Source of the DNA: Acidimicrobiales bacterium mtb01
Lineage (GTDB): Bacteria; Actinomycetota; Acidimicrobiia; Acidimicrobiales; Ilumatobacteraceae
Length of the DNA: 64,000 nt
Direction: 5' to 3'
Assembly (NCBI GenBank): GCA_004379135.1
Contig: NBNI01000007.1
Span: 1,165,501 to 1,229,500 of the forward strand
Position 1 is the stretch's first letter. Each line of letters begins with the position of its first letter. Shown one piece after another: positions 659 to 24,763 of the stretch. The position numbers and the translations under genes were made by a program. The notes under the pieces are model-generated. The model worked only from the letters and a program-made list of their open reading frames with translations. It had not been told where the DNA came from and did no database searches.

Positions 659-2361
659 AGCAGGTTCGTGATCGCGCCCTTTTCGGCGCCCTGTGCGAGC
701 CGCGCGTACTTGCCGAGCACTCCGCTGGTGTACCGGGGTTCGTTGGGCTTCCAACCCTGACGGCGCCGCGTCATCTCGGCCTCGTCGACGAGCAGATCGA
801 GCGACAACGACGAGACGTCGATGCGGATGCGATCTCCGTCGCGCACGAATGCGATGGGCCCGCCGTCGACCGCCTCGGGTGCGACGTGGCCGATGCAGAA
901 GCCCCAGGTTCCGCCGCTGAATCGGCCGTCGGTGATGAGTGCGCAATCGGCGCCGCGTCCGGCGCCCTTCAGCGCACCGGTGATCGCCAGCATCTCGCGC
1001 ATTCCCGGCCCACCCTTGGGTCCTTCGTAGCGAATGACGAGGACGGTGTTGGGCTGGATCTCGCCGGCCATGATCGCGGCCATCGCGCCGTCCTCACCAT
1101 CGAACACGCGCGCGGCACCTTCGAACTTGCGCTGCTCGGGCGTGAGACCGGCCACTTTCACGACCGAACCCTTGGGCGCGAGCGAACCACTGAGCACAAC
1201 GATGCCGCCTTCGGGACTGATCGGCGAGTCGATCGGATGCACCACGACTCCATCGGGTCCCGGCGGATCGATTTCGGCCAGGTTCTCGGCCATGGTGCGT
1301 CCCGTGCACGTGAGAACGTCGCCGTGCAGCAGACCCGCGTCGAGAAGATGCTTCAGCACGACCGGCACGCCGCCGATTCGGTGGAGGTCGGTCATGTGGA
1401 ACTTGCCGCCCGGCTTCATGTCGGCGAAGTGGGGCACGCGAGCGGCGATGGTGTTGAATTCCTCGAGCTTCAGTTCGACACCGGCCTCCTTCGCGACGGC
1501 CAAGAGGTGCAGGACCGCGTTGGTGCTTCCACCGAGAGCATTGGTGAGGGCGATGGCGTTCTCGAACGCCTTCTTGGTGAGGATGTCGCGCGGACGGATG
1601 CCGAGACGCAGCATGTTGACCACGGCTTCGCCGGCGCGGCGCGCGTCGTCCTCACGGCTGCGGTCGACCGCGGGGGCCGACGCCGATCCGGGAAGCGACA
1701 GACCGAGGGCTTCGCCGATCGACGACATGGTGTTGGCCGTGAACATGCCGCCGCACGCGCCTTCGCCCGGACAGGCCGCTTTCTCGATGGCCGTCAACTC
1801 GTCCTGCGACATCGTGCCGGCGGCGCAGGCGCCGATGGCCTCGAACACCGTCGTGATGTCGATGTTCTTGCCGTTGTGCTGACCGGGGAGAGTTGACCCG
1901 TTGTAGACGAACACCGCCGGCAGATCGAGGCGCGCGATCGCCATCATCATTCCGGGCATGCTCTTGTCGCAGCCGCCGGTGGCCACCAATCCGTCGAACC
2001 GCTCGGCGTGCATCACGGCTTCCACCGAGTCGCAGATCACTTCGCGGCTCACGAGCGAGGCGCGCATGCCTTCGTGGCCCATCGAGATGCCATCGCTCAC
2101 CGTGATGGTGCCGAACTCCATCGGTACCCCGCCGGCCGCGCGAACACCCAACTTGGCCGCCTCGGTGAGACGACGCAGCGACATGTTGCACGGCGTGATC
2201 TCGTTCCACGAGGAGGCCACTCCGATCTGCGGCTTGCTCCAGTCGTCGTCGGTCAACCCGACCGCGCGCAACATGGCACGGGAGGCCGCCTTCTGGATGC
2301 CGTCGGTGACATCGCGGCTACGGGGCTTGACGTCGACGGGAGTGACTCGCTCGGTACTCAT
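655..2361 (-). CDS. ilvD: dihydroxy-acid dehydratase
   Basis: Dehydrates 2,3-dihydroxy-3-methyl acids to 2-oxo acids in valine, isoleucine and pantothenate biosynthesis, in the cytoplasm. At 568 residues it has the full IlvD length. The three iron-sulfur cysteines are visible at about residues 58 (ITPCNM), 131 ([10 protein letters not shown]) and 203 ([12 protein letters not shown]), and the C-terminal half carries the conserved ITDGRFSGG segment. The ATG at 2361 is the only sensible start. It stands alone: no ilvB, ilvC or leu genes lie in the window. The next gene on the same strand, upstream, is an iron permease 38 bases away, so co-transcription with iron uptake is possible. Confidence 0.97.
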
Positions 2362-2399
2362 GAGTCCACGGTAGCGGTCGACCAGGAAACGACGTCAGG

Positions 2400-3260
2400 T
2401 CACCCGACCGGGGCCGGTTCCTTGTCGTTGCTCGTGGGTCGCGAAGCCGATGACGTGTTCGCGACCTTCGCCGGACGGAGGAAGAGGTACATCACCGGCA
2501 CCAAGTAAGCGATGTAAGCGATCAATCGGATCAATTCGGTGCGGGCGTGCCAGCCGAAGAAGCCCTTCATGAAGTCGTAGAACGTGCCCTTGGCCCACAG
2601 GCCCGACTCGACCGTCCAGACCGGGTCGATGAGCAGCCCGGTTTCGAGACCCATGGCTTCGCGGAACTCATGGAACGCCTTCCCCACCAGGCCGGCGGCG
2701 AAAAGGATCAGCAGGACGCCGGTGACCTGGAAGAAACGGCGCAGGTTGAGCCGATTTCCACCGCGGTAGATGGCGACACCGAGGATCGTGGCGACGACGA
2801 GTCCGAGAATTCCACCCAGCACCACCTGGCTGCCTGACGACGAACCTGTTTCAGCGCTGAGAAGGAAGAGAACGGTCTCCAAGCCTTCACGAACGGTGGC
2901 GACGAAGGCGATCACACCGAGGGCGGCCGCGCCCGTCGCCGCATCGACCTTCGATCGAAGTTCCGAGCCGAGGCTTCGGGCGTTGGCCCGCATCCAGAAG
3001 ATCATCCACGTGAGAACACCAGCGGCCGCGACGGCAATCGAGCCCTCGACGATCTTGTTGGCGGTTCCGTGCAGTTCGCCGATCGCCGCATGAATGATCA
3101 GTCCGACGGCCAGACACAGCACCATGGCCAAACCGGTGCCTTTCCACACCGCCCCGGTCTCGGAACCTCGACCGGTCTTGACCAGGTAGGCGACGAGGAT
3201 GGCCAGGACGAGGGAGACTTCCAGGCCTTCGCGGAGGGTGATGAGGAACGATGCGCCCAT
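2400..3260 (-). CDS. FTR1/EfeU-family high-affinity iron permease
   Basis: Membrane permease of the FTR1 family, which takes up ferric or ferrous iron. Both family signatures REGLE are present, at residues 10-14 in the first membrane segment and 124-128 in the fourth; these acidic motifs bind iron in characterised members. About seven hydrophobic segments are seen in 286 residues. I chose ATG 3260 and not the in-frame ATG 21 bases upstream, because the later start puts REGLE at the usual distance from the N-terminus and leaves a palindrome (3271-3286) outside the coding sequence. The partners EfeO and EfeB are not nearby, so this may act alone or with remote partners. Confidence 0.92.
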   Translation of the reverse strand: MGASFLITLREGLEVSLVLAILVAYLVKTGRGSETGAVWKGTGLAMVLCLAVGLIIHAAIGELHGTANKIVEGSIAVAAAGVLTWMIFWMRANARSLGSELRSKVDAATGAAALGVIAFVATVREGLETVLFLLSAETGSSSGSQVVLGGILGLVVATILGVAIYRGGNRLNLRRFFQVTGVLLILFAAGLVGKAFHEFREAMGLETGLLIDPVWTVESGLWAKGTFYDFMKGFFGWHARTELIRLIAYIAYLVPVMYLFLRPAKVANTSSASRPTSNDKEPAPVG

Positions 3261-3270
3261 GGGACGCGAT

Positions 3271-3286
3271 GTTAAGTACACCTAAC
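3271..3286 (-). promoter_or_regulatory. candidate metal-responsive operator upstream of the iron permease
   Basis: The 16 bases GTTAGGTGTACTTAAC (minus strand) form an inverted repeat with two mismatched pairs and include a TTAGG half-site like those bound by DtxR/IdeR iron repressors. It ends 10 bases before the permease start codon. The spacing between half-sites is shorter than in the classical 19-base IdeR box, so the regulator's identity is open. AT-rich bases here stand out from the GC-rich surroundings. Confidence 0.42.
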
Positions 3287-3339
3287 AGAGGCCGTCAACC
3301 CCGACCGCCCCGACGAAGGTCACAGAGGGGCCGAATGGC

Positions 3340-4614
3340 TCACTTCTTGCGGCCGAAACCGAACAGGTGCTGACCCACCTTGCGCATCTGGATCTCCTCG
3401 CTGCCCTCGGTGATCCGGTAGCGGCGATGGTGTCGATAGATGTGCTCGAAGGGCATGTGCCGGCTGTAGCCCACTCCGCCGCAGGTCTGCATCGCACGGT
3501 CGGCCGCGTCGCACGCCAAGCGGTTGGCGCGGTAGTTGCACATCGCGACCAGGTGGGTGAACTCCATGAATCCCTCCACGTCGGGGCGGTCGTCCTTCAC
3601 CGAGTCGTCCATGAGCCAGGCCGTGTAGCGGATGAGTTGGCGGAGCATGGCCGCCTCCGTGTGCATCTCGACGAGCGGGAACTGGATGCCTTGATTGCTC
3701 GAGAGCTTCTTGCCCCACGTGATGCGCGAGTTCGCGTAGGCCACCGCTTCGTTGATGCAGAACTGCGCCGCACCGAGTGATGACGCTGCTTGACGAATCC
3801 GATTCTCGTGCACGAAGTGCTGCGCCAGATCGAGGCCGTGGTCGAGTCGACCGAACAGCGCCGAGTTCGGAACGCGCACGTCCTTCATGCTGACTTCGGC
3901 ATGGTCGGTGGGCATGTTGAAGGTCCACCAGAAGAAGTCGACGTTGAAGCCGGGCGAGTCGGTCGGGACCAGGAAGGCCGAGATGCCGATGGGGCTTCCC
4001 GGCTCACCGGAGGTGCGCGCGAAGATGATGTCGTGGGTCGCGTGGTGCAATCCGCTGTTCCAGCGCTTCATTCCGTTGATGACCCACTCGTCGCCGTCGC
4101 GCACCGCGGTGGTCTCGAGGTGGGTCGCGTCGCTTCCGTGATTCGGCTCGGTGAGACCGAACGCGAGGCGCTTCGTCCCGTCGAGGAACCCCGGCATCCA
4201 CTCCTTCTTCTGCGCCTCGGTGCCGAAGTCGCGCATCATGAGCACGGTCGGGAAGTTGCCGACGATCGACGACTCGTTCTGCAGGTCGTTGTGGAGTCCG
4301 AGCCCCTTGGTCGCGAGGTGTTCGCGGATGATCGCCATCTCGAGATTGCTCGCACTGCGACCCCCGAACTCCTTGGGAAGAGCGAGTCGCAGCCACCCGG
4401 CGGCATCGGCCCGACGGCGCATCTCGCGCAACAGGTCCTCCCACTCGGCGCGAGGTACGCCACCGTTCTCGAAATCGGTTCGGGCCCACTCGCGTCGGTG
4501 ATCGAAGAAGCGCTCGTTGTCGTCCTGGGCCTGCAGCGGCGCGATCTCGCGTTCGATGAACTCGTCGAGTTGGTCGAGCGTGCGCTGAATGTCGGCGGGA
4601 ATGGCGAAATCCAT
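3340..4614 (-). CDS. acyl-CoA dehydrogenase family protein
   Basis: FAD-dependent enzyme that introduces a 2,3-double bond into an acyl-CoA, passing electrons to ETF. From ATG 4614 the protein has 424 residues, the normal length. The substrate/FAD loop reads FGLTEPNHGSDATH in the middle domain, and the C-terminal helical domain carries ITEGSEEIQMRKV, whose Glu403 sits where the catalytic base of medium-chain-type dehydrogenases lies. A longer in-frame extension to 4896 exists but reads through the divergent thioesterase gene and is not believed. Acyl substrate unknown; the neighbouring thioesterase (divergent, 55-base gap) suggests shared acyl-CoA metabolism. Confidence 0.93.
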   Translation of the reverse strand: MDFAIPADIQRTLDQLDEFIEREIAPLQAQDDNERFFDHRREWARTDFENGGVPRAEWEDLLREMRRRADAAGWLRLALPKEFGGRSASNLEMAIIREHLATKGLGLHNDLQNESSIVGNFPTVLMMRDFGTEAQKKEWMPGFLDGTKRLAFGLTEPNHGSDATHLETTAVRDGDEWVINGMKRWNSGLHHATHDIIFARTSGEPGSPIGISAFLVPTDSPGFNVDFFWWTFNMPTDHAEVSMKDVRVPNSALFGRLDHGLDLAQHFVHENRIRQAASSLGAAQFCINEAVAYANSRITWGKKLSSNQGIQFPLVEMHTEAAMLRQLIRYTAWLMDDSVKDDRPDVEGFMEFTHLVAMCNYRANRLACDAADRAMQTCGGVGYSRHMPFEHIYRHHRRYRITEGSEEIQMRKVGQHLFGFGRKK

Positions 4615-20918: not shown

Positions 20919-21722
20919 GTGACCGCCACCGAGAATCCATTGCTCCGCGCCGCCGCCCTGGGCAACGCCCAGTTGCTGGCAATGCCCTCCTTCGACAACG
21001 TCGAGGACGAACGCTTGTATCGAAAGCAGCGTCTGGCCGGCGCCTTGCGCATCTTCGGCCGCCTCGGATTCGGAGAGGGCGTGGCCGGACACATCACCGT
21101 TCGCGATCCCGAGAGGCCCGACCACTTCTGGGTGAACCCGTTCGGTTTGTCGTTCCGACACATGCGCGTGAGCGATCTGCTCCTCGTCAATCATCAGGGC
21201 GAAGTTGTACACGGCGACATGCCCGTCAATCGCGCGGCCTTCGTGATCCATTCGGCCATCCACCAAGCACGTCCCGACGTCATCGCCGCGGCCCACGCGC
21301 ACTCGGTGCACGGCAAGGCGTTCAGCTCCCTCGGTATTCCGCTCGACCCGATCACACAGGACGCGTGCATCTTTTATGACGACCACCGCGTGATCTCCGA
21401 GCAGGGCGGTGCGGTCGTGTTCGACATCGACGCCGGCAAGGAATTGGCGGCGGCTTTCCCCTCGGGCAAGGCCGCGATCCACCAGAACCACGGCCTCTTC
21501 ACCGTCGGCACCACCGTGGAGGAAGCCGCGTTCTGGTTCATCACCATGGAGCGTTCGTGCCAGGCGCAGTTGCTCGCCATGGCCGCCGGTACACCGAAGA
21601 AGATCAAGCACGAGTACGCGGCGTACACGCAGGAGCAAACCGGACACCATCTCGCCGGATGGTTCCAGTTCCAGCCGTTGTGGCAGGAGATCTGCCGCAC
21701 CGACCCGGAACTCTTCGACTGA
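20919..21722 (+). CDS. class II aldolase/adducin family protein
   Basis: Zinc-dependent aldolase fold, 267 residues. Metal ligands are seen in IAAAHAHSVHGKAF (His-x-His) and in AAIHQNHGLFTVG (third His). Basic phosphate-binding residues of fuculose-phosphate aldolases are not clear, and an N-terminal extension of about 40 residues precedes the fold, as in the fungal/actinobacterial group often called simply aldolase family. GTG 20919. The substrate cannot be assigned. The next gene, a transporter, overlaps or abuts its end. Confidence 0.9.
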   Translation: MTATENPLLRAAALGNAQLLAMPSFDNVEDERLYRKQRLAGALRIFGRLGFGEGVAGHITVRDPERPDHFWVNPFGLSFRHMRVSDLLLVNHQGEVVHGDMPVNRAAFVIHSAIHQARPDVIAAAHAHSVHGKAFSSLGIPLDPITQDACIFYDDHRVISEQGGAVVFDIDAGKELAAAFPSGKAAIHQNHGLFTVGTTVEEAAFWFITMERSCQAQLLAMAAGTPKKIKHEYAAYTQEQTGHHLAGWFQFQPLWQEICRTDPELFD

Positions 21723-22618
21723 GCGGAGTCTCCACTCCCCCGTCCCGACCGATCGGGACGTTCCTCGCCTCGGCGCCGCCCGAAGCGCTCTTCGTGCTGA
21801 GCGCGATCTCGCAGTACGCGGGCGCGTCCATCGCCATCGGATTGTTCGACGAAGTCGCACCGGCGACGGTCGCCTGGTTTCGGATCATCGGTGCGTCGAT
21901 CGCGCTCGTTCTGGTGTCGACGTCGCATCTGCGTCGTCGATTCACCCGCGCCGAATTGATCGCCATCGCCGTGTTCGGCATCGCGTCGTCGCTGATGAAC
22001 ACGTTCTTCTACTTGGCGATCGATCGCATCCCGCTCGGCAAGAGCGTCACGATCGAGTTCATCGGCCCGATCGCGGTGGCCGCCGCCCGGACGCGCTCTC
22101 GACGCAACGCACTGGCGTTGGTATCGGCGGTGATCGGAGTAGCGGTGCTGTCTGGTGTCGAGTTGGGCGGCGAGCCCCTCGGCCTCGTCTACTTGTTCGC
22201 CGCGTCGGCGATGTGGGCGGCGTACATCGTGCTGGGTTCGCGCGTCGCCCAGCAGAACCACGGCGTGGCCGGCTTGGGCGTCGGGTTGGCGATCGGGGCT
22301 CTCTTCGTGGCTCCGATCGGTGCTCCGGCGAGCGGGGATGTGTGGACTTCGCCGCGGCTTCTCGTTCTCTGCATGGTGGTCGGCGTGCTGTCGAACGCGA
22401 TCGGCTACGGGATCGACCAATCGGTGCTGCGGCGGATTCCGATTCGCCGCTTCAGCGTTCTCCTCGCGTTGCTGCCCGTGGTCGCGGTGCTCGCGGGGTG
22501 GATCGCCCTCGATCAGGTGCCGGCCGGCGTCGATTATCTCGGAATGGTGCTGGTGCTGGCCGGTGTCATCGTGCAGGAACGCGACGAACTCCCCCAACCC
22601 CGAGGATCTGGTGACTGA
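21680..22618 (+). CDS. EamA/RhtA-type drug/metabolite transporter
   Basis: Ten-segment EamA permease built from two five-segment repeats (for example FVLSAISQYAGASIAIGLFD near the start and RFSVLLALLPVVAVLAGWIA near the end). It resembles RhtA-type exporters of amino acids. The start is uncertain: no ATG/GTG/TTG follows the aldolase stop before the first segment, so I use GTG 21680, which overlaps the aldolase by 43 bases; GTG 21794 would remove the conserved PPEAL before segment one. The last codons and stop lie inside the left arm of a large palindrome. Confidence 0.86.
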   Translation: MAGDLPHRPGTLRLSGVSTPPSRPIGTFLASAPPEALFVLSAISQYAGASIAIGLFDEVAPATVAWFRIIGASIALVLVSTSHLRRRFTRAELIAIAVFGIASSLMNTFFYLAIDRIPLGKSVTIEFIGPIAVAAARTRSRRNALALVSAVIGVAVLSGVELGGEPLGLVYLFAASAMWAAYIVLGSRVAQQNHGVAGLGVGLAIGALFVAPIGAPASGDVWTSPRLLVLCMVVGVLSNAIGYGIDQSVLRRIPIRRFSVLLALLPVVAVLAGWIALDQVPAGVDYLGMVLVLAGVIVQERDELPQPRGSGD

Positions 22619-22719
22619 AAGTCACCGCCCAGGTGACGAAGTCGCACCAGATTCGTGCTCAGCAGATTTTCTGGTGCGACTTTGGACCCCATGCGGTGAC
22701 TTTCAGTCACCAGATCCTC
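22602..22719. repeat. nested palindromic element between convergent genes
   Basis: Two arms of 27 bases, 22602-22628 and 22693-22719, are exact inverted repeats. Each arm contains its own hairpin, GGTGACT-GAA-AGTCACC. Inside lies a second exact inverted repeat of 13 bases, AAGTCGCACCAGA (22639-22651) with its complement at 22670-22682. The arms cover the last codons and stop of the EamA gene and the stop of the rhodanese-ThiF gene. It could be a strong bidirectional terminator or a small mobile palindrome that inserted at the gene ends. No T-run is present. Confidence 0.85.
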
Positions 22720-23887
22720 AGTGGGTGGAGAGCCAGGGGGCGCAGAGGCCGTCGAGTTCGCGCACTTCGATCCGGTCGCGGTTCTCCCACGTCACCGGAT
22801 TGGTCGGATCGGGTCGCAGGTTGAACACCCGGAACGACATCTCGGTCGTGTCGACGGCCAGGATCCGTCCGATCAACGGCTCGCCCAGACCGAGCAGGAC
22901 CTTGATCGCCTCGAGCGCCTGGATCGAACCCACGATCCCGGGCAGCACGCCGAGCACACCGGCTTCGGCACAACTCGGCGCGAGCTCGGCCGGCGGCGGC
23001 TCGGGAACCATGTCGCGGTACGTCGGGCCCAACTTCGGATGGAACACCGACACCATGCCCTCGAACCGGAAGATCGAACCGTGCACCACCGGGATGCCCA
23101 GCTTCACGCTCGCGTCGTTGAGCAGATAGCGCGACGGGAAGTTGTCGGCGCCATCGACGATCACGTCATAACCCGTGATGATGTCGATGATGTTCTCGGC
23201 TGACAAGCGGGTGTCGTAGCAAACGACGTTGACATCCGGATTGAGCGCCGTGAGCGTCTTCTTGGCCGAGTCGACCTTGCGATCGCCCACACGATCGATG
23301 TTGTGCAGGATCTGCCGCTGCAGGTTGCTCGCATCGACTTCGTCCATGTCGACGATGCCGATGGTGCCCACTCCGGCCGCCGCGAGATAGAGCGCAGCCG
23401 GTGAGCCGAGTCCACCCGCACCGAGCAACAAGACCTTCGAGCCCAGCAACTTGGCCTGGCCCTCCACACCCACTTCGGGAAGGAGCAGGTGGCGCTTGTA
23501 GCGATTCGACTGCTCGGGTGTGAGCGAAGCGGGCGCCTTCCAAAGACGCCCCTCGTCCTTCCACTTCCCGAATCCGCCGGCCATCGACAGCACGTTGGTG
23601 TATCCGAGTTCGCCGAGCGTCTTGGCCGCGAACGCACTGCGCACACCGCCCGCGCAGTACACGATCACCGGCGCGTTCTTGTCGGTGAGCCGACCCTCCA
23701 CTTGCGCCTCGAGGTGACCGCGCGGAATGTGCAACGCGCCGATCAACGCTCCCTCGGCATGCTCGTCGGGCTCGCGCACGTCGAGAACCGCCACGCCGCC
23801 GACGGCGATACGGGCTTCGGCACTCGCGGTGTCGATTTCGGTGATGGTCGCCTTGGCGGCGGCCAGGAGGTCCCGGAATGTGGCCAT
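22718..23887 (-). CDS. rhodanese-ThiF/MoeB fusion, sulfur-carrier adenylyltransferase
   Basis: 389 residues with an N-terminal rhodanese domain (about 22-112; active-site loop CAGGVRS with Cys78) and a C-terminal E1-like ThiF/MoeB domain (about 122-389; ATP loop LLLGAGGLGSPAAL at 153-166, Asp in VDMDEVDASNLQRQ, conserved SCAEAGVLGVLPG). E1-like enzymes adenylate a ubiquitin-like sulfur carrier and, with the rhodanese, put sulfur on it for molybdopterin, thiamin or cysteine synthesis. In MoeZ and MOCS3 the rhodanese is C-terminal; here the order is reversed. The usual zinc cysteine before the catalytic loop is replaced (YRDMVPEPPP). The sulfur carrier is not in the window. Confidence 0.92.
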   Translation of the reverse strand: MATFRDLLAAAKATITEIDTASAEARIAVGGVAVLDVREPDEHAEGALIGALHIPRGHLEAQVEGRLTDKNAPVIVYCAGGVRSAFAAKTLGELGYTNVLSMAGGFGKWKDEGRLWKAPASLTPEQSNRYKRHLLLPEVGVEGQAKLLGSKVLLLGAGGLGSPAALYLAAAGVGTIGIVDMDEVDASNLQRQILHNIDRVGDRKVDSAKKTLTALNPDVNVVCYDTRLSAENIIDIITGYDVIVDGADNFPSRYLLNDASVKLGIPVVHGSIFRFEGMVSVFHPKLGPTYRDMVPEPPPAELAPSCAEAGVLGVLPGIVGSIQALEAIKVLLGLGEPLIGRILAVDTTEMSFRVFNLRPDPTNPVTWENRDRIEVRELDGLCAPWLSTH

Positions 23888-23896
23888 GCCAAAACC

Positions 23897-24763
23897 CTAC
23901 CGGGTTGGTCGGGATTCACCACCGAGGAGGGCCGGCAGCATTTCCCCGATCGAGCCGATGACCAACGCGTCGGCGAACCGATCCATCGCCGTCGACTCGC
24001 CGTTCAGGATGACCACCCGTGCCCCGGCCTGGCGGGCCCGCGGCACGGTGTTGTTGACGGGCCCCACCGACAAGGTGGAGCCCACCGCGAGGAACAGATC
24101 GCAATCCTCGGCCGCCGCCATGGCCGCACCGATCACCTCGGGAACCAACGGCTCACCGAACAGGATCGTCGAACTCTTGAGGATGCCCCCGCACAGCAAA
24201 CACGACGGATCGATGTCGCCGTCGACCACTCGTTGGATCGACTCGCCCATCGAACGACGATCGCCGCAATCCCAACACAGAGTGTCGCGCCACGAGCCAT
24301 GAACCTCGATCACGCGCTCGCGCGGATGGCCGGCATCGAGATGCAGACCATCGACGTTCTGCGTGATGATCGCGCGCAACTTACCGCTCGTCTCGAGATC
24401 CAGCAAGGCGTGATGGCCCGAGTTCGGCCGCGGTCGTTCGCGACCGAGGTTCCGCACGCGGTTCTGCCACGCCACCCGACGCACTTCGGGATCACCGAGG
24501 TAGTGCTCGATCGTGGCGGCCTTCTCGGCGGCCGGGTTCTTCGTCCAGAGCCCGTTGGGCCCGCGGAAATCGGGAATCCCCGAATCGGTGGAGATGCCCG
24601 CCCCGGTGAGAACCGTGATGCGACGGGCCTCGCTGATCCATGACGCGACCGTCGCGACATCGGGATCATCGGCCGACGTGATCGTGAACACGGCGTCATT
24701 CTGCCCGTCGCGAGCCGCCTCGGCACGATCGTCGTCGTCCACACTCGCGCGCTTCCCCGCCAT
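23897..24763 (-). CDS. Sir2-family NAD-dependent protein deacylase
   Basis: Removes acyl groups from protein lysines using NAD+. Motifs: VLTGAGISTDSGIPDFRGP (residues 51-69), TQNVDGLH, the catalytic His in EVHGSW, and the four zinc cysteines in LCWDCGD and CLLCGG. Start ATG 24763 gives 288 residues; the first 30 residues are acidic and low-complexity (VDDDDRAEAARDGQND), so a GTG at about residue 25 is also possible. An upstream extension to 24901 would run through the divergent gene and is rejected. Ten bases separate it from the rhodanese-ThiF gene, likely one transcript. Confidence 0.92.
   Translation of the reverse strand: MAGKRASVDDDDRAEAARDGQNDAVFTITSADDPDVATVASWISEARRITVLTGAGISTDSGIPDFRGPNGLWTKNPAAEKAATIEHYLGDPEVRRVAWQNRVRNLGRERPRPNSGHHALLDLETSGKLRAIITQNVDGLHLDAGHPRERVIEVHGSWRDTLCWDCGDRRSMGESIQRVVDGDIDPSCLLCGGILKSSTILFGEPLVPEVIGAAMAAAEDCDLFLAVGSTLSVGPVNNTVPRARQAGARVVILNGESTAMDRFADALVIGSIGEMLPALLGGESRPTR

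Follow-up and report, generated by a model that had tools for sequence, protein, structure and literature searches.

A nested palindrome between two convergent genes

The window analysed here is a 64,000-nucleotide stretch of the genome of Acidimicrobiales bacterium mtb01, an assembly of 2.56 Mb in 7 contigs. At 22602-22719 it carries a 118-base palindrome that lies across the facing ends of an EamA transporter gene and a MoeB/ThiF-rhodanese gene. The features of this locus are as follows.

21794..22618, plus strand: EamA transporter gene; stop and last codons within unit 1 and its flank
22602..22628, plus strand: left outer 27-base arm, made of the A arm of unit 1 and a GAGGA flank; self-palindrome at 22610-22626
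22607..22651, plus strand: unit 1, 45 bp, TCTGGTG...CACCAGA, with 20-nt arms and a 5-nt loop
22639..22651, plus strand: inner 13-base inverted repeat, left half, within the B arm of unit 1
22652..22669, no strand: 18-nt spacer separating units 1 and 2
22670..22682, minus strand: inner 13-base inverted repeat, right half, within the B arm of unit 2
22670..22714, minus strand: unit 2, 45 bp, head to head with unit 1
22693..22719, minus strand: right outer 27-base arm, exact reverse complement of the left; self-palindrome at 22695-22711
22718..23887, minus strand: MoeB/ThiF-rhodanese gene, convergent; stop at the edge of the unit 2 flank

The palindrome is real, and its nested architecture, as given in a preliminary description of this DNA, is borne out in both sequence and fold. 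Over all 27 bases the outer segments (22602-22628 and 22693-22719) are reverse complements without a mismatch. Both carry the self-palindrome GGTGACT-GAA-AGTCACC, and the inner inverted repeat is exact over 13 bases. The 118-nt strand folded at -87.1 kcal/mol, whereas shuffled versions averaged -34.4 (z -13.9), and a repeat search of the window returned a single imperfect pair at the palindrome, 63 nt long and 79% complementary. By a rough estimate, chance would yield an exact 27-base arm pair about 4e-10 times per 64 kb, so none is expected.

The arms had also been described as replacing the ends of both flanking genes, which holds for one of them. The EamA stop codon (22616-22618) lies inside the left arm and the gene has lost its original last codons and stop; by eye, the protein ends in QPRGSGD here versus PTDD in the junction DNA of the relative G011. 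The stop codon of MoeB/ThiF (22718-22720, minus strand) falls at the outermost edge of the palindrome, and by eye this gene end is essentially intact. No T-run follows the element, a terminator scan of 21500-24000 gave two terminator-like sites that both lie elsewhere, and Rfam returned 0 matches at gathering score in the window.

The palindrome is two copies of a dispersed unit

The window palindrome consists of two 45-bp units, TCTGGTG-N31-CACCAGA, placed head to head. A copy count across the genome, proposed in the preliminary description, shows the element to be multi-copy: this pattern occurs as 35 units at 30 places, with 0 matches for the reversed pattern. Head-to-head doubles occur at 5 of these places, window included, and the exactness over 118 bases, read earlier as pointing to active maintenance or a recent insertion, comes mostly from two copies pairing with each other. 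The 17-base palindrome GGTGACTNNNAGTCACC, allowing at most one mismatch, has 40 matches per strand in the genome and 0 for its reversed control; all 40 fall within units or within a 23-bp remnant of a unit at one further place.

The units of this genome resemble one another (mean identity.885) and share an unusual make-up, in which 31 of 35 have two unlike arms and 4 have two like arms. In 29 of the 31 unlike-arm units one arm is ACTGAAAGTCACC or differs from it by a single base; the other two (C4:27922 and 30433) carry another arm variant. Unit 1 of the window belongs to this own-species dialect, with A and B arms unlike each other and 13 of 20 pairs formed, and unit 2 is the copy most distant from the search pattern, with 1 mismatch on one strand and 3 on the other. 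Folded singly, seven units gave -20 to -39 kcal/mol; three lay at -20 to -22 kcal/mol versus -35 to -39 for three well-paired units. Because single units of this genome pair poorly, the need for a perfect stem is weakened.

Called genes contain none of the 36 copies (35 units and the remnant), and several copies run into a gene end, by at most 41 bases. By junction type, 23 are convergent, 10 tandem and 3 divergent. Convergent junctions are enriched (23/36 versus 12/60, p 2e-5) relative to a background drawn from the 64-kb window alone. No target duplication was evident by eye in the flanks of 38 listed units and in empty junctions, the empty sites being too diverged to give an exact border.

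A phage or plasmid origin was considered and rejected: blastn gave 0 matches at E 0.01 in 50,697 phage and 72,556 plasmid records, and the exact 20-mer was absent from viral contigs. Its sole occurrence among the genome contigs searched was in a Rhodoferax MAG, where the 17-base palindrome stands without the 45-bp unit and was treated as chance.

Some units bracket genes. Six pairs face each other 0.4-2 kb apart, and a composite transposon was considered and rejected, since at four of them the bracketed genes were matched in the same neighbourhood of relatives; in this comparison, which covered four pairs (L011 and L028 lay outside it), the present genome had an extra gene at L023 and a DUF gene at L020. 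The L023 interval (1955-2833) holds a metallo-beta-lactamase-fold gene between two units that is missing from the otherwise matching G015 stretch (L069). At C1:49318-49795 (L011:1819-2296), two facing units enclose one 114-aa gene without a Pfam match. Locus L029 (C4 near 28-30.5 kb) has a 165-base direct repeat (1900-2064 and 4411-4575), 92% alike, which brackets 2.5 kb and contains a unit together with what by eye appears to be a tRNA 3' end, although ARAGORN reported no tRNA there. A related site in G001 (L074) has a tRNA-Leu just upstream of a double unit. The L029 stretch is possibly an integrated island with att-like repeats.

A genus-wide family with fixed ends and variable interiors

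Units were found in 19 of 24 genomes of the genus, and at the sensitivity used they were not found in G009, G013, G014, G016 and G020. The relatives are draft genomes, mostly fragmented. Searching 61 genomes at the DNA level with the window element gave matches in 3 (the genome itself, plus a single weak match in each of G012 and G015), and the family is visible only through covariance models and a second DNA query. The first covariance model, built from the units of this genome plus one unit each of G012 and G015, matched at least 14 of the 24 genus genomes at E 0.001. A second dialect group, defined from a hairpin met by chance in G002, gave matches at E 0.01 in 7/24 genomes and was numerous in G002 and G003; the unit of G022 was recognised by reading a junction. 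With a broader model at least 14 of 150 genomes matched, at least 5 of them outside the genus, and the family may thus extend beyond it. Genome G169 (genus g11, same taxonomic family) had at least 22 matches to this model, both strands counted.

Across the family the CTGGTG/CACCAG ends are fixed and the length is nearly so. Among 119 regular-expression matches (40-47 bp allowed), 106 were 43 bp, 8 were 44, 2 were 42 and 3 were nominally 45; the models that fetched most loci favour 43 bp, the second DNA query carries no such bias, and the expression misses poorly paired units, returning 17 matches in the present genome rather than 35. The interiors form several species- or clade-specific dialects, with more than one dialect in each of G004, G006, G007, G017 and G021. 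In an alignment of 55 units, 18 of 25 stem pairs showed changes on both sides (compensatory), and 78.9% of stem cells were paired; shuffles gave 72.9% and slid partners no more than 45.7%, figures that lean towards pairing because the units were mostly found by a model already holding part of the stem. In most relatives, compensatory changes keep the interior palindromic. Three units of other genomes were scored inside a called gene. In G011 (L066:2266-6935), four units lie about 1.5 kb apart beside successive genes that by eye resemble a beta-propeller-like repeated family.

Junctions are shared, sequences are not

From matches of the flanking proteins, the same junction carries a unit in the present species and in G001, G008, G011, G012 or G015 at several places. 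Between 5 and 8 junctions are shared per genome pair versus about 0.3 by chance, assuming about 2,400 junctions; the shared counts, set by hand and with one-sided matches included, are 8/24 for G015, 7/21 for G001 and 5/22 for G011. We compared the identity of units at orthologous and at non-orthologous places. For the present genome, orthologous units were.66 identical with G001 (n=7; non-orthologous.652),.653 with G011 (n=5;.649) and.724 with G015 (n=7;.701). Between G001 and G011 orthologous units were far more alike (.911, n=14, versus.776 non-orthologous), so that units can also descend vertically. These means are approximate: the orthologous set of 49 pairs includes 17 one-sided pairs, some double members counted twice and one weak pair (42% protein identity). 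Given that the sites are shared and that orthologous units are practically no closer than unrelated ones, the simplest reading is that variants of the present lineage replaced an earlier sequence at shared sites. One related set of variants, the 31 of 35 units with unlike arms, now fills the sites of this genome, including the shared ones that were compared.

The MoeB-EamA junction of the window was readable in 19 genomes of the genus, 3 with a unit and 16 without: the present genome has the double, G015 a single unit, and G012 one that is degraded by eye. It is empty in G001 and G011, the closest relatives (.89-.90 MoeB DNA identity). In a MoeB+SufB tree the present genome is sister to G001+G011, and an ancestral gain followed by loss in G001/G011 is therefore at least as simple as several gains. 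The preliminary description had named a unique palindrome, conserved here in all relatives with compensatory changes, as the picture expected of a terminator; the element is multi-copy, and 16 of the readable junctions lack a unit. Its own view, which favoured maintenance or recent insertion over a simple terminator, finds partial support in the multiple, homogenised copies, which speak against a lone terminator, and in the empty junction in G001 and G011. Maintenance and recent insertion each hold in part, the sites being often old and shared and the present sequence recent.

At the sufB junction, readable in 18 genus genomes, a unit precedes the next gene in 11, with at least 5 dialects represented; another gene or DNA stretch separates sufB from the unit in the present genome, G004 and G010, and six genomes have a short junction without a unit. 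In G011 (L220) the first 12 bases of a unit remain and are followed by an inserted gene, by eye an FkbM-type methyltransferase, and another insertion is found at this junction in G010 (L202) and G004 (L204). This site appears to be a hot spot of gene acquisition. In the present genome the interval between sufB and the unit holds the DUF gene (146 aa, without a Pfam match; L020:3572-4012, C3 near 193.6-194.0 kb), which lies beside an acyl-CoA dehydrogenase gene in G011, G015, G012, G020 and G022. This gene seems to have moved in the present lineage, and its placement suggests movement beside units. An integron-like cassette was considered and is not claimed here, as there is no unit between sufB and the DUF gene.

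Interiors are replaced in place

We followed individual junctions through one clade (G004, G006-G008, G010, G017-G019, G021 and G022). Matching on both sides between species succeeded for seven junctions, and the interior was replaced at 3 of these and kept at 4 (.88 to 1.00). At one, G007 (L041) and G008 (L226) have an identical 43-bp unit, and that of G004 (L223) differs, with 10 of 31 interior bases in common. The flanks of L223 are kept, 25/25 on the left and 23/25 on the right versus G007, and 24/25 and 20/25 versus G008. The tree groups G004 with G008 (MoeB.98, SufB.97), which places the change on the G004 line. At another, G017 (L096) and G008 (L140) agree in 11/31 interior bases and in 24/25 and 22/25 flanking bases.

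The sufB site gave a similar picture among G004, G006, G008, G010 and G017. The right flank is.87-.97 identical in 10/10 pairs; interiors are.26-.48 identical in 8/10 pairs, and.84 and.97 in two same-dialect pairs. Because the 12 bases on the left side of the unit also differ, exchange at this site may have extended past the unit. One junction has a unit identical at 43/43 positions in G004, G007, G008 and G017, with flanks about 87-95% identical. Whole replacement with little point change between such events fits copying rather than gradual drift under selection on the stem. No exchange was caught in progress, and no base-for-base match of a donor unit to a recipient was obtained. Together, these sequence comparisons give clear evidence for replacement of the interior at constant sites.

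Origin of the units and alternative explanations

The element is present in multiple copies, lies outside genes in this genome, is enriched at convergent junctions, changes in a compensatory manner, occupies shared sites, is homogenised within the present species and is replaced at constant sites. It is a real multi-copy REP-like element with a replaced interior. On balance we lean towards a model in which REP-like gene-end hairpins spread by copying of the interior, anchored on a fixed outer stem. The copying itself, by ectopic conversion or by a recombinase, we infer from these patterns.

Among the alternatives, a MITE-like element is possible though fairly unlikely; its transposase or recombinase would recognise the CTGGTG/CACCAG ends and insert preferentially at existing units or gene ends. 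The fixed ends would serve as 6-7 bp terminal inverted repeats, and the nearly fixed length, the 35 copies, the unlike-arm make-up common to 31 of them and a junction filled in some species and empty in others would all be expected. Against this, shared junctions keep their place and differ in interior, target duplication is not evident by eye in 38 flanks, and Y1_Tnp, the one transposase family searched, is absent from 24/24 genus genomes; we know of no candidate enzyme for such ends. Ordinary bidirectional terminators or 3' stability hairpins, under selection on structure alone, would account for units at gene ends, for stems stronger than shuffles with compensatory changes and for sites conserved across species. 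We think this improbable in view of the whole-interior swaps, the mismatched interior common to the copies of this genome, the 3/36 copies between divergent genes, the missing T-tract of the window element, and the ends that stay fixed across dialects at 43 bp in 106/119 matches, a length that the searches favour.

A DNA- or RNA-binding protein that co-evolves with the units, changing specificity from one species to the next so that selection shifts all sites together, could explain why a single dialect dominates the present genome and why two six-base ends stand at a set distance; the several dialects within each of G004, G006, G007, G017 and G021, and the loops and mismatches that units also have in common, make it quite unlikely. 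We give almost no credence to an assembly artefact: palindromes are prone to misassembly and the relatives are mostly fragmented drafts, but like architecture recurs in 19/24 genomes, and a typical short read is longer than a unit with its flanks. Elements of the REP/REPIN type, mobilised by a RAYT (a Y1 tyrosine transposase), match the units as dispersed, species-specific intergenic palindromes with inverted doublets at gene ends, as described in parts of PMC3733652 and PMC3116915. This origin was rejected as very improbable after searches for Y1_Tnp (PF01797) were positive in 0/24 genus genomes, several of them incomplete, with a control search positive in 5/14 named genomes; by eye, no GTAG or CGTC tag was seen at the ends of listed units. 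A DNA uptake sequence that also forms gene-end stems would bring dialects and inverted pairs at terminators, as parts of PMC3630211 describe for Neisseriaceae. It is barely conceivable here, with 35 units per 2.6 Mb versus the 943-4265 sites per genome given in the same parts of that source, and with all 40 matches of the 17-base palindrome confined to units or the short remnant.

These data allow a mechanism to be proposed for the copying that we favour. The palindrome would extrude or be cut during replication, and the break would most likely be repaired from another dispersed unit, that is by ectopic conversion, with no REP transposase involved; a recombinase is the chief competing route. 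Guided by the fixed outer stem, the donor interior would be copied over that of the recipient. It counts against this route that such conversion would work with 6-12 bp of homology per side, shorter than ordinary RecA recombination is thought to need. Palindromes stall replication, and SbcCD removes them in E. coli, according to part of PMC3733652; such removal could thus supply the break that is repaired from another unit. The sites would be kept since a 3'-end hairpin does no harm or is of use, perhaps in ending transcripts in both directions or as a processing stem, and gene-end placement and stable stems fit a putative role of this kind. Vertical descent in G001 versus G011 (.911 between orthologous units) counts against copying as the universal mode. 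More tentatively, and as a conjecture that we think may well be wrong, 31-bp 'hairpin inserts' would be mobile DNA of a new kind and would move between fixed CTGGTG/CACCAG sockets at gene ends, replacing each other with total length kept, driven by host repair or a recombinase, and genes would also be gained beside the sockets.

The units offer a system for the direct study of how dispersed repeats are homogenised within a genome. G004 and G008, 97-98% identical in two marker genes, have wholly different hairpin interiors and kept flanks at one junction. The co-evolution of dispersed bacterial palindromes, whether by conversion, transposition or selection, is thereby made testable in a genus with no REP transposase found.

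Comparison with known systems

We found no description of a CTGGTG/CACCAG repeat family in the open-access literature searched. Gene conversion was reportedly proposed for REPs by Higgins in 1988. Integron attC sites are hairpins with short end boxes (GTT/AAC) and a variable, structure-conserved interior, homogeneous per species and found at gene ends. The units resemble them in the hairpin, the short end boxes, the variable but structure-conserved interior, the homogeneity within a species and the gene-end site. They differ in having TCTGGTG/CACCAGA ends in place of GTT/AAC boxes, in lying outside a single cassette array, in occupying sites common to several species and in being near-perfect palindromes in most relatives.

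REP/REPIN elements of the GTAG family are likewise short dispersed intergenic palindromes, present as singlets and inverted doublets in convergent and tandem spacers and often species-specific; parts of PMC3733652 and PMC3116915 describe their size class, location, doublets and species-specificity. In the units, by contrast, the GTAG tag was not seen and the genus yielded no RAYT, the CTGGTG/CACCAG ends are fixed, the interior is replaced and sites are common to several species. CGTC-tagged REPs, including dRS3 of Neisseria, are also palindromic repeats, and in the portion of PMC3733652 that treats them they are apparently without a dedicated transposase; the units differ in their longer stem and in that no CGTC tag was seen. 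The main text of PMC3733652 never mentions 'actinobacter...'. The DNA uptake sequences of Neisseriaceae, as described in part of PMC3630211, resemble the units in a fixed core surrounded by species-specific dialects and in inverted pairs at terminators; they differ in being short sites numbering about a thousand to several thousand, whereas the units are long and number tens. Mobile hairpins of organelles (GC clusters, RHE), in partial accounts of them, are small mobile elements in spacers like the units, which differ in residing on a bacterial chromosome, in their fixed ends and length, and in an interior that is replaced at constant sites.
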